In this document: piece by piece, positions 142 to 18,106 of the stretch | Numbering within the stretch: the first letter of the stretch is position 1 | Layout: each line of letters begins with the position of its first letter | Source of the DNA: Candidatus Nitrosotalea sinensis | Lineage (GTDB): Archaea > Thermoproteota > Nitrososphaeria > Nitrososphaerales > Nitrosopumilaceae | DNA length: 64,000 bases | Assembly: GCF_900143675.1 (NCBI RefSeq) | Contig: NZ_FRFC01000005.1 | Location: 62,001-126,000, forward strand | Reading direction: 5' to 3' | Notes under the pieces: model-generated | The model's database searches: none | Told to the model about the DNA's origin: nothing | The model's input: the letters and a program-made list of their open reading frames with translations, nothing else | Translations under genes and position numbers: made by a program

Positions 142-426
142 TTAGCTGAACATCTGTCCAGGAGGAGATGATGATTTTCCTTTTACAGAGTCAGGCTCTA
201 CGAAAAATTTTCTTTCATTAGGAATTATAGACAATTTTAGTGACGCATTTACTGCATAATGTGGCGTTCCATCTGGATTTTTGTAATTGGTAGCAATTCC
301 AACTCTGTCTAGATCAACTTTGACTTTCACCATAGTACCATCTTCGAGTTTGAAAATAACATGTTCTCCTCCAACACGCTGATGGTCCAACATTTTGAAT
401 TCTATTTTATTTTTAGATGCACTCAT
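142..426 (-). CDS. Conserved small hypothetical protein
   Basis: The product has 94 residues and starts at ATG 426. It is predicted to be a small beta-rich soluble protein: the middle reads like antiparallel strands (HVIFKLEDGTMVKVKVDL), followed by a TPHYAV segment and a disordered Ser/Pro-rich end. No signal peptide, membrane segment or metal motif is visible. I do not recognise a named family; it looks like a thaumarchaeal orphan. It lies just downstream of the collagen-like gene on the opposite side of that gene's 3' end, same strand, so co-transcription is possible (38-nt gap). Confidence 0.7.
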   Translation of the reverse strand: MSASKNKIEFKMLDHQRVGGEHVIFKLEDGTMVKVKVDLDRVGIATNYKNPDGTPHYAVNASLKLSIIPNERKFFVEPDSVKGKSSSPPGQMFS

Positions 427-463: not shown

Positions 464-2101
464 CTAGTATAGAAAGCTCATCAATTTTATTTGTTGTTCA
501 GTCGTAATGACATTTTTTGATGATAGTATCTCAAGTAGTTGCGTGATGAGAGCTCTTTCTTGTTCAGAAAATCCAGTTGGACCTTTGTCACCTGGAGGAC
601 CTGGAGGACCTCGTGGACCTTGATCACCCGGAGTACCTTGAGGACCTTGAGGGCCTTGTTGACCCTTGTCACCGGCTGGACCCTGAGGACCAGTTAATCC
701 TTTATCACCTTGCGGACCTTGTACACCTTGAGGACCTTTTTCTCCGGGAGGGCCTTGTGGGCCAAGCGGACCTACTGGACCAGGAAGCCCTTGTATTCCG
801 GGCGGACCCTTGTCACCCGGAGTACCTTGTGGACCAGTTGTACCTTTTTCTCCTTGTGGACCTTGAATTCCTTGTGGACCTGGAGGACCAACAGGACCAG
901 GAGTACCACGCGGACCTTGGTCACCACTTGGACCTGGAAGACCTCGTGGACCTTTGTCACCTTGGGGACCTGGAATTCCTGTTAGGCCTTTTTCTCCTGG
1001 AGGGCCTTGTGGGCCTTGAGGACCTTTTTCTCCAGGAGGGCCTTGCGGACCAGTTAATCCTTTATCACCTTGTGGACCTTGTGGACCAGGCAATCCTTTG
1101 TCGCCAGGAGGACCTGGCGGACCTTTAGGACCTTGATCACCCGGAGGACCAATGATGCCCTTATCACCTTGTGGACCAGGAGGACCAGTAGGACCTTTTT
1201 CTCCAATAGGCCCAACTTCCCCAGTTAATCCTTTGTCGCCTTTGTCACCTTTGTCACCTTTATCGCCACGTTCTCCTTTTTCTCCTTCATCACCACGTGG
1301 ACCTTTGTCACCTTGTGGACCTTTATCACCTGTAATTCCTTTATCTCCAATTGGTCCCTTGTCTCCCCTGTCACCTTTGTCACCTATTGTTCCATGTGGA
1401 CCTTTGTCACCTGGAGGACCTGGAGGACCTGGAGGACCTTTGTCACCTGTAATTCCTTTATCTCCAATTGGTCCCTTGTCTCCCCTGTCACCTTTGTCGC
1501 CAGGAGGACCTGGAGGACCTTTGTCACCTTTGTCGCCAGGAGGACCTGGAGGACCTTTGTCACCTTGTACACCCATCGGACCTGGAGGACCTTGTACTCC
1601 CGGTGGACCCATAGGTCCTGGTTGTCCCATAGGACCCGGTGGACCCATAGGTCCTGAAGGTCCTCTTGATCCTCTTTCACCATAATGCACCATCACAGGT
1701 TTTTGCTTTTGAATAGATTCAGAATCAGATTTAGTAAAATGAGGTACAACATCTGATTCATTTACAGTACTTGCTACATGTTCCAAATTAGTTCGTGGAA
1801 CATCAATCTGGAAACTAGTATGAATAGACGAAAACTGGTCAATCACCACAACCCAAACAGTTCCTCTCTGAAATACAGAGTCAGGCAATGGGTTTCTTGT
1901 AGATCCAAGAATTTGAGAAAATTGTTTATCTTTTACTCTCAAGTGAAAACTGTCTTTCCACAAAGAATGGAAACTTCTTCTTTTTATCTCGTCAGATGAA
2001 GGAGGAGTGTCACATAATGCAATTTGAACCTCAAACACACCAGAGGAGAGTTTGAAGGGTGATTCTCCCGTGATTTCAATAGTATTACCTTTTGACGACA
2101 T
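464..2101 (-). CDS. Collagen-like triple-helix repeat protein
   Basis: The product has 545 residues. Residues 1-140 form a non-collagenous, beta-rich N-terminal region. Residues 141-510 are about 123 uninterrupted Gly-X-Y triplets, rich in GPP, GPQ and especially GDKG. A 35-residue helical tail ending in MSFLY may serve as a trimerisation or capping segment. Uninterrupted G-X-Y is diagnostic of the collagen fold. Charged DKG/EKG triplets are the usual stabilising substitute where prolyl hydroxylation is absent, as in bacterial collagens. No signal peptide or membrane segment is visible, so the location is uncertain: cytosolic, or exported by an unknown route. The start ATG at 2101 lies about 20 nt after the start site expected from a TATA box at 2140-2149. 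Open frames on the opposite strand here are mirror images of the repeat. Confidence 0.9.
1326..1498. repeat. Exact internal duplication in the collagen region (two 56-bp copies)
   Basis: Positions 1326-1381 and 1443-1498 are identical over 56 nt and lie 117 nt apart (13 Gly-X-Y triplets). They encode the same series of DKG, GPI and GIT triplets. Nucleotide-level identity in a region where synonymous sites elsewhere vary suggests a recent in-frame duplication, by slippage or unequal crossing over, so the length may differ between strains. Confidence 0.85.
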
Positions 2102-2139
2102 ATGCTACGTGTAATTCCTAAGTATTTTTGTATTTTCAA

Positions 2140-2250: not shown

Positions 2251-3402
2251 ATGACCGTGAAGAAATTATTTGGAGATAAAAAGGAAGAAGAACCCAAGAT
2301 AAGCAAGAAGACAGACATCAAGATTCCAGAAGAATCTACAAACACTAAACTAACAGATCCAAATTACAACAGAACCAAGCATTACAAGAAAGGAGTGTCT
2401 TTAATGGCAGATGAAAGAATGGAAGATGCCGCGCGCGCCTTTGAAGATGCACTACGTATAGATCCAGGACATGTAGATTCTCTACTCAAGTTAGGATACA
2501 CACGTTTTCACATGAATGATCTAGCAGGAGCATTAGAGCAATATAACAAAGTACATGAAATTGATGTCACAAATGCAGAAGCTTGGAATTTAAAAGGTTT
2601 GATTTACTACAGGCAAAAAAATTATGACAAAGCATTAGATTGCGTAGAAAAAGCAATAGATTCAAACCCAACAGATGGAATGTCTTGGTACAACAAGGCA
2701 TGTTATCATTCTTTGTTAAATCACATTCCAGAATCAATAGAAGCACTAAAGCGTTCAATTGAAATTGATGTGAAGAATGCAAAGAAAGCAGTAAAGGACA
2801 AAGATTTCGATAACATCAAGACAGATGAAGGATATAGAAGAATTGTAGAAGTAGTAGTTTTAGAATCAGTCAGGCAAGGCTATCACAAAGTAGGACAGAT
2901 AGTATGGACTACGATGATAGGTAAGCTTGAGGTTGAAGATGCTGCAAGAAAATTAGTAGAGAAAGGATTACTTATCAAGGCAGAGAAAAACTTAGGCCTA
3001 CAAAAAGTAGAAGAGTATGAAATAGTTCCAGAGCTTGCAGAAAAGATAGGTGTTGAGAAAAAGGGCTTTTTTGGAACAGCAAAAAAATCACAGCCAATTG
3101 TAATACAGAACCTCAAGGAGATAAACGAAGCAGTTCACGCAGTCAAGATAGCAATAGAAAATGGAGATACCAAAGAAATCATTTCAAAATTAGATGTTTT
3201 CATTGAACCGTCAAAAAAAGGCGGGCAGATGATAGAGTATTTTTTTGAAGAACACCGAGATATACGACTCTTCAAAGTGAGGCTTACAGACAAAGGATCA
3301 GAGTATCTTCAGACAAACAAACAGAAAATGATGGATCTTTTCAACAATATTGAAATGATGATCACAAAGAAGCTTAGAAACGAAGCGGCCCAGAATTCAT
3401 AA
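2251..3402 (+). CDS. TPR-repeat protein with winged-helix-like C-terminal half
   Basis: ATG 2251 is preferred over the TTG immediately before it; this gives 383 residues. A charged, disordered N-terminus (about 1-40) is followed by three to four tetratricopeptide repeats (about 45-180, with GLIYYRQKNYDKALDCVEKA a typical unit). The C-terminal half (about 190-380) contains segments resembling winged helices, including a run VEDAARKLVEKGLLIKAEK. TPR arrays bind partner proteins; the C-terminal half may bind nucleic acid or further protein. No catalytic motif is seen. The function is unknown. It is convergent with the rhodanese gene (2-nt gap). Confidence 0.8.
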   Translation: MTVKKLFGDKKEEEPKISKKTDIKIPEESTNTKLTDPNYNRTKHYKKGVSLMADERMEDAARAFEDALRIDPGHVDSLLKLGYTRFHMNDLAGALEQYNKVHEIDVTNAEAWNLKGLIYYRQKNYDKALDCVEKAIDSNPTDGMSWYNKACYHSLLNHIPESIEALKRSIEIDVKNAKKAVKDKDFDNIKTDEGYRRIVEVVVLESVRQGYHKVGQIVWTTMIGKLEVEDAARKLVEKGLLIKAEKNLGLQKVEEYEIVPELAEKIGVEKKGFFGTAKKSQPIVIQNLKEINEAVHAVKIAIENGDTKEIISKLDVFIEPSKKGGQMIEYFFEEHRDIRLFKVRLTDKGSEYLQTNKQKMMDLFNNIEMMITKKLRNEAAQNS

Positions 3403-16891: not shown

Positions 16892-18106
16892 ATGAAACGA
16901 TTAGAAACAATACTCTTGGGAGTCATAATTGTACTTGCTGCCACAGTAGTGTTGCAATACAGTAACAACAGAATATTAGGAGACACATCACAGGCAACTG
17001 TTCAAGGACCGCCTGGTCCACAGGGCCCACCAGGACCTCCCGGCCCACCAGGACCGCCTGGAACAGGAGACACATCTAGCCCCATCGTGATGGACTCTAC
17101 TCTTACACATATCTTCAAAAAGACTGAAAATTCTGTTGTTCAAATAACAAGTAGAGTATCTTCAGTTGATGACAGTGTCATAATCAACGGTCAGCCATTA
17201 GAAAGCCAATCTACAAGATTAGGCTCAGGTTTCATCTATGACAAAGATGGGAGAATAATTACCAATAATCACGTAGTTGATGGTTCAAAGACAGTCAACG
17301 TTTCATTTATAGATGGTAATACATATACTGCAAAAGTCATAGGCACTGACCCAGGAAATGACATTGCAGTAATACAGATAATGGATAACTTTTCAGATGA
17401 GACACTTGTTCCTTTAACTCTGGGCAATTCATCAAACCTAGATGTAGGCCAACAAGTCATAGCAATTGGCAATCCCTTTGGACTAAGTGACACCATGACA
17501 ACAGGAATAATTAGTCAAATAGGTAGATTACTTCCAAATGAAAATGCGGCTGGATTTTCAATACCTGATGTTATACAAGTCGATGCAGCCATAAATCCAG
17601 GAAATTCAGGAGGACCACTACTAGACTTGAATGGTCAAGTAGTAGGAATGAATACCGCAATAAGGACAAACACTGGTGATTTTGCAGGCATTGGATTTGC
17701 AGTACCATCAAATACCATCAGCAGAATAGTTCCAGTATTAATTAAAAATGGAAATTATTCACATCCATATCTAGGGATATCAGGAAGAAGTCTTGATCCA
17801 GATGTATCCCTTGCAAATGGACTTGCTAGAAACTTCAAAGGAGTAATTGTAGAAAGTATAGTAAAAGGAGGACCTGCAGACAAGGCAGGAATTACGCCAG
17901 CAACTCCAGATCAAAATAACATACTACATGGAGGAGACATTATCACGGCAATAGATGGTCATCAAGTAAGAACAATTTATGATGTCATTGCATACCTAGA
18001 TGAACAGAAGAACGTAGGAGACAAGGTGGTGTTGACAGTATTCAGGGAAGGAAAATCAGTTGATCTAACAGCCACACTCGGTGCAAGACCCACACCATCA
18101 TCATAG
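16892..18106 (+). CDS. HtrA/DegP-like serine protease with collagen-like stalk and PDZ domain
   Basis: The product has 404 residues. A membrane anchor or signal segment lies at 5-24. Residues 39-59 form seven consecutive Gly-X-Y triplets (mostly GPP). A trypsin-like domain follows, with the triad His127 (NNHVVDG), Asp157 (GNDIAV) and Ser239 (GNSGGP), and a C-terminal PDZ domain begins at about 300. HtrA proteases are trimers that degrade or refold misfolded envelope proteins. A collagen-like stalk, which also trimerises, between membrane and protease fits that symmetry. A GAGGT-like sequence lies just upstream of the ATG. The 3' end overlaps the convergent glycosylase gene by 6 nt. Confidence 0.94.
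   Translation: MKRLETILLGVIIVLAATVVLQYSNNRILGDTSQATVQGPPGPQGPPGPPGPPGPPGTGDTSSPIVMDSTLTHIFKKTENSVVQITSRVSSVDDSVIINGQPLESQSTRLGSGFIYDKDGRIITNNHVVDGSKTVNVSFIDGNTYTAKVIGTDPGNDIAVIQIMDNFSDETLVPLTLGNSSNLDVGQQVIAIGNPFGLSDTMTTGIISQIGRLLPNENAAGFSIPDVIQVDAAINPGNSGGPLLDLNGQVVGMNTAIRTNTGDFAGIGFAVPSNTISRIVPVLIKNGNYSHPYLGISGRSLDPDVSLANGLARNFKGVIVESIVKGGPADKAGITPATPDQNNILHGGDIITAIDGHQVRTIYDVIAYLDEQKNVGDKVVLTVFREGKSVDLTATLGARPTPSS

Follow-up and report, generated by a model that had tools for sequence, protein, structure and literature searches.

A collagen-like protein with a perfectly periodic Gly-X-Y rod is encoded by almost every genome of the archaeal family Nitrosopumilaceae, forming a real and conserved family that is not described in the literature searched and is a new protein family among prokaryotic collagens. 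The family stands out by its near-universal presence in the lineage, its perfect periodicity, a length that is stable within clades and an apparent lack of secretion. The member analysed here lies in a stretch of 64,000 nucleotides of Candidatus Nitrosotalea sinensis (the window), taken from an assembly of 1.6 Mb in 10 contigs. The favoured reading, to which we assign a probability of about one half, is that the protein would form a homotrimeric, C-terminally nucleated rod of ~106 nm, acting as a spacer or scaffold inside the cell.

The gene occupies positions 464-2101 of the minus strand and, according to the open reading frame call and its translation, encodes 545 amino acids from an ATG start. 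A Pfam scan of the whole protein returned Collagen (PF01391) as its sole match (E 1.5e-62; score 207.7 bits, cut-off 27.2), and the rod is flanked by an N-terminal part of 140 residues and a C-terminal tail of 33 residues, bearing out the first-pass annotation in its view of a collagen-like protein with separate modules at both ends. The rod (aa 141-512; positions 566-1681, minus strand) consists of 124 Gly-X-Y triplets out of 124 in a single unbroken run; the array is uninterrupted, as had been proposed, and the earlier count of 123 left out the final triplet, GFS. Similarly, the 140 N-terminal residues are distinct, as annotated, although they comprise about 105 folded residues and a variable linker of about 35 rather than one domain. 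The folded part (aa 1-104; positions 1790-2101, minus strand), delimited by a 47-member alignment and AlphaFold2, has no Pfam match. The linker (aa 105-140; positions 1682-1789, minus strand) varies in length and sequence and is predicted to be disordered, with weak conservation past alignment column 100 and pLDDT below 60 from about residue 101. The end of the protein (aa 513-545; positions 467-565, minus strand) is helical in the AlphaFold2 prediction, in keeping with the annotated helical end, whose length is corrected from 35 to 33 residues.

Proline fills 59 X positions and 29 Y positions of the window rod, lysine fills 32 Y positions, and 41 positively charged residues are matched by 41 negatively charged ones. 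If triple-helical, the 372 residues would extend over ~106 nm at 0.286 nm per residue. The G+C content of the rod is 54%, against 36% for the window, because the codons needed for glycine and proline impose it. Tandem repeats in the rod DNA have periods of 9-117 and mostly match at 66-90%, indicating that the array is old and diverged.

With the N-terminal 140 residues as the query, 154 of the 167 Nitrosopumilaceae genomes that are at least 85% complete proved to carry the gene, nearly always in one copy and in 20 of 20 genera. The sample includes Nitrosotalea, Nitrosopumilus, Nitrosarchaeum, Nitrosotenuis and Nitrosopelagicus, which are taken together as Nitrosopumilaceae. At the level of the order, a profile built from 47 N-terminal domains matched 133 of 250 genomes, every one from Nitrosopumilaceae, with no match in the 108 genomes of the other families. 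A phylum-level search for the same domain gave matches in 48 of 299 genomes, again all from Nitrosopumilaceae, and in none of the 250 genomes outside the family. True absence from all 13 gene-negative family genomes was rejected, as a contig end interrupts the locus in nine of them (G001, G080, G025, G069, G095, G147, G168, G173 and G184): two retain the C-terminal module at the contig edge, and in the other seven the contig stops on the collagen side of the neighbouring TPR-repeat gene, either cutting that gene or ending no more than about 210 bp from it. Another negative genome (G081) carries a different gene at the locus, a real rearrangement or loss, while neither the collagen gene nor the TPR gene was found in the remaining three (G118, G120 and G144). 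Pfam Collagen contained 14 archaeal sequences as of 2015 (PMC4565658), and the first-pass annotation had called such repeats rare in archaea; this fails for Nitrosopumilaceae, because the gene is near-universal, single-copy and syntenic there. A literature search on collagen in ammonia-oxidising archaea, with subscription journals largely outside its coverage, returned no description of the family.

Among 107 distinct full-length orthologs containing N-terminal domain, rod and C-terminal module, 12,023 triplets were counted; none of the rods is interrupted, and none of the proteins has a second rod segment. In 103 of the 107, the tail after the rod measures 33 or 34 residues. Rod size ranges from 68 to 185 triplets (median 120, with peaks at 101-103 and 122-125), the Nitrosotalea rods having mostly 123-124 or 101-103. 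When the window gene was compared with eight Nitrosotalea orthologs of 123-124 triplets, rod dN/dS was 0.04-0.07 at a dS of ~0.8-1.2, and 40-59 of the 123-124 glycine codons (32-48%) differed synonymously while the protein was kept. The Nitrosotalea rod is under strong purifying selection. Identity at X and Y positions among Nitrosotalea rods of 123-124 triplets is 84-89% in register against ~23% when shifted, and orthologs with 124 triplets give 88-89% in register against 23% out of register. In most other genera it amounts to 34-43% at the best shift against ~20-24%, with a few genera reaching only ~30%. Ortholog pairs whose N-terminal domains are at least 70% identical show a median difference of 0-1 triplets. 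The register-specific identity and these small differences in triplet number show that, within clades, individual positions of the rod are conserved and its length nearly so; between clades, rod lengths differ. Short-read repeat collapse could affect single triplet counts, but the closed genomes G035 and G006 agree with the drafts. The rod is neither a product of chance nor an assembly artefact, the latter having been raised as a way for the annotation to fail and being refuted by other assemblies, complete single-contig genomes included, that carry the same rod.

Several individual members deserve separate description. The largest (L055:7835-10696, plus strand) has 953 amino acids and 185 triplets, and its frame continues 5' of the N-terminal domain in a long stretch rich in Pro and Ala. 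In the G090 ortholog (L199:6895-7611, plus strand), the Gly-X-Y frame is lost after ~20 triplets (GREEREDLLEIKDLQ), which looks like a frameshift, arising from sequencing error or decay. In a genus with genomes of ~0.8 Mb, the protein (L198:7653-8750, minus strand) has a shorter rod, some of which is masked as N; its C-terminal module has diverged, and it may represent an early or reduced version of the family protein.

The perfect glycine periodicity argues for a real triple helix. X positions hold 43% proline and Y positions 27% lysine, 20% glutamine and 16% proline, a composition compatible with an unhydroxylated, bacterial-type triple helix. An alternative would be a flexible low-complexity chain that forms no triple helix and works as an entropic spacer or hydration polymer. 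It draws on a net-neutral polyampholyte composition (the net charge of rods in the family is +2.4 +/- 3.0), on a search of the genome for the prolyl hydroxylase family PF13640, which found none and means that rod stability at growth temperature is not assured, and on the KG[DE] pairs. Such pairs stabilise triple helices, and their enrichment was considered as an argument for stability and rejected, as the rod contains 7 against 10.1 +/- 2.4 in triplet-shuffled rods, fewer than expected. Nevertheless, glycine is invariant at all 12,023 positions though X and Y vary, and disorder requires neither perfect glycine periodicity nor register-specific conservation of X and Y, making the flexible chain improbable.

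The N-terminal domain has 13 invariant columns in the 47-member alignment: G12, P15, G21, E24, W48, H53, L54, F61, G66, P71, P73, D88 and S91. AlphaFold2, run with the 47-row alignment, predicts an Ig-like beta-sandwich with a mean pLDDT of 85, rising to 90-96 over residues 11-100. Comparison with the PDB gave a best E of 0.86 by sequence and, with Foldseek, a best E of 0.018 at a TM-score of 0.44, with no match at E of 0.001 or lower. The best VIA-align match of the model is the ligand-binding region of SgrA from Enterococcus faecium (Z 7.2 over 88 residues, rmsd 3.2), which lies in the range of common Ig-like arrangements. No sequence relatives of the domain outside the family were found in Pfam, NCBIfam, PHROGs, phages, plasmids or viral contigs. 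Kinship with a bacterial pre-tail-fibre domain, suggested by an NPLP motif, was likewise unsupported, as tblastn of phages and plasmids and searches of viral contigs, Pfam, NCBIfam and PHROGs were negative.

The C-terminal module is as conserved as the N-terminal domain in the alignment. It is predicted by AlphaFold2 to fold into a helical hairpin (pLDDT 95.5; helices 2-16 and 22-32) and is a candidate trimerisation domain. Its sequence was found nowhere else in the genomes above chance. Assignment to SHOCT or another Pfam domain was rejected for want of a consistent match, the best being CARD at E 0.001 in one of 37 members.

A collagen-like shaft is also a feature of phage tail fibres, raising the question of whether the gene is a domesticated viral tail fibre or encodes the fibre of a phage-tail-like particle made by the cell. 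Matches to PHROG tail-fibre families (PHROG 6320 and others) are strong but run through the collagen repeat, and a search of BFVD with the N-terminal domain yielded one viral protein at E 1.5e-4 but a TM-score of 0.33, a weak fold match. No homologs of the end domains were found in the phages, viral contigs and PHROGs searched. Furthermore, no phage genes occur near the locus in the window or in the regions of conserved synteny, and the locus is vertically conserved among metabolic and TPR neighbours. A viral or tail-like origin is therefore very improbable.

The divergent neighbour of the gene is a TPR-repeat protein (positions 2260-3402, plus strand; identified with Pfam TPR) that, in 38 of 40 loci, is no more than 565 bp away. 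Beyond it there are usually genes for rhodanese-like, sulfite/nitrite reductase-like and Thi4-like proteins, names that come from reading the sequences, the TPR protein alone having been scanned with Pfam. On the 3' side, a 94-amino-acid protein (positions 142-426, minus strand) is a frequent neighbour, adjacent in many genera. It was rejected as an obligate partner, being present in collagen-free families and missing from many collagen-bearing genomes, and its evolution is independent of the collagen gene. The conserved neighbours suggest no shared pathway. Elsewhere in the window, an HtrA/DegP-like protease (positions 16892-18103, plus strand; Trypsin_2 and PDZ) has an N-terminal membrane helix and a short collagen-like stretch before the protease domain, several triplets of which are kept in most Nitrosotalea orthologs and absent in two. 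HtrA proteases are trimers, so a triple-helical stalk is plausible in this protein.

The cellular location of the collagen-like protein was approached through its N-terminus. An in-frame TAG (positions 2105-2107, minus strand) stands two codons 5' of the ATG, and nearly all Nitrosotalea orthologs have the same arrangement, excluding an N-terminal signal peptide in this genus and strengthening the earlier statement that none is present. A candidate TATA-like element, ACAAAAATACTT (positions 2120-2131, minus strand), picked out by eye, lies ~18-29 nt 5' of the ATG, and an in-frame stretch of the 'IQKYL' type, compatible with an AT-rich element, occupies the same upstream place in orthologs from other genera. 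In 78 loci, some of which share a genome, the frame stays open 5' of the conserved domain for a median of 7 codons and for no more than 25 in 67 of them, and no strongly hydrophobic N-terminal or transmembrane segment was seen in the orthologs examined. The maximum of N-terminal hydrophobicity is at most 1.61 across the family; four secreted collagen-like proteins from related archaea reach 1.88-3.22. An LPXTG motif occurs in none of 107 orthologs. Judged from these sequence features, a cytoplasmic location is the simplest reading.

The secreted collagen-like proteins of ammonia-oxidising archaea (for example L191 of Nitrosotenuis chungbukensis MY2, L194/L195 and L197) share Gly-X-Y repeats with the family and differ from it in their hydrophobic, Sec-type N-termini, their other domains and their patchy occurrence. 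One of them (L197:2922-6959, plus strand) has 1345 amino acids and repeats a near-identical collagen-like unit, GLTGATGAQGPQGEQRLQ, many times before apparent Calx-beta and FG-GAP-like repeats, a recent identical array in contrast to the core family, whose rod is old and diverged. In MY2, contig ends carry a cut collagen-like protein, or proteins, with a signal peptide (L191:1-1263 and L190:2012-3853, both minus strand); this strain thus encodes the family protein (L130) together with pieces of at least one other collagen bearing a signal peptide.

These proteins bear on the main rival, in which the family protein is a surface or extracellular adhesin or matrix protein, exported without a Sec/Tat-cleavable signal, possibly through a C-terminal sorting signal, and associated with the S-layer. 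To our knowledge, all well-studied prokaryotic collagens are surface proteins. The best-known of them, Scl1/2, Lcl and BclA, are located there (PMC8968730), an 'LPXTG-anchored collagen-like adhesin' tied to the envelope is reported in the MY2 proteome (PMC13037477), and the SgrA adhesin region is among the best structural neighbours of the N-terminal domain. However, no ortholog examined has a signal peptide, and the hydrophobic N-termini of the other collagens in these archaea indicate that these archaea possess the usual export route and employ it for those proteins, not for the family protein. The signal-peptide protein of MY2 may itself be the adhesin of PMC13037477. Applied to the family protein in ammonia-oxidising archaea, the label is doubtful, because the NCBIfam scores fall below their cut-offs and LPXTG is missing. 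A surface location is rather unlikely.

Comparison with known systems shows what is distinctive about the archaeal protein. It resembles Scl1/Scl2 (SclA/SclB, NF038330/NF038329) in its long unbroken rod without expected hydroxyproline, its N-terminal globular domain and a comparable composition of the repeat (E 2e-63 for the repeat region), but it lacks a signal peptide and an LPXTG anchor, has other end domains, is single-copy and is conserved in length within clades. The two NCBIfam models scored 214.7 bits against a cut-off of 325 and 199.6 against 400, and orthologs also stay below. Legionella Lcl (NF046116; 204.7 bits against a cut-off of 500) likewise places a collagen-like rod beside a globular end domain; it is extracellular (PMC11162425), whereas the archaeal protein lacks an export signal and is predicted to form a helical hairpin at its C-terminus. 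The Bucl proteins of Burkholderia are further prokaryotic collagen-like rods with distinct end domains, and their rod length varies among strains (PMC4565658), unlike the archaeal rod, which is nearly constant among related species.

We therefore return to the reading of an intracellular rod. The protein would remain in the cell as a homotrimer, its three chains joining through the C-terminal helical hairpin, which would set the register. Established collagens, in which chains associate at the C-terminus and then zip towards the N-terminus, provide the analogy. The 124 triplets would zip in the same direction into a charge-neutral triple helix, leaving three beta-sandwich heads tethered by flexible linkers at the N-terminal end. 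Such a molecule could serve as a rigid spacer or scaffold of near-fixed length, whose heads and C-terminal module would bind partners or membrane-associated structures, with the rod keeping them at a set distance. Rod length hardly changes within a clade, which argues for a spacer role, while the range of 68-185 triplets between clades weakens the idea of a strict ruler.

The cell radius of Nitrosopumilaceae is ~0.1 micrometre, close to the length of a 106 nm rod. Ammonia-oxidising Nitrosopumilaceae are rod-shaped and those of the sister group Nitrososphaeraceae coccoid (PMC13037477); the distribution of the gene follows this split, which is a single evolutionary contrast and only suggestive. 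It is a speculative proposal, and on balance unlikely, that a cytoplasmic collagen strut is a core cytoskeletal or scaffold component of Nitrosopumilaceae, perhaps linked to their thin rod shape.

In ocean and soil, Nitrosopumilaceae rank with the most abundant archaea, and nearly all of them carry this core collagen gene without an export signal. Prokaryotic collagens are usually pictured as surface adhesins that occur patchily and vary between strains, and the archaeal gene contrasts with this picture. The 33 conserved residues at its C-terminus may also offer recombinant collagen work a new trimerisation domain of small size. A collagen that probably functions inside the cell has thus been largely overlooked in very abundant archaea; should the protein prove cytoplasmic, it would count as an intracellular collagen and as a candidate structural element of these cells.
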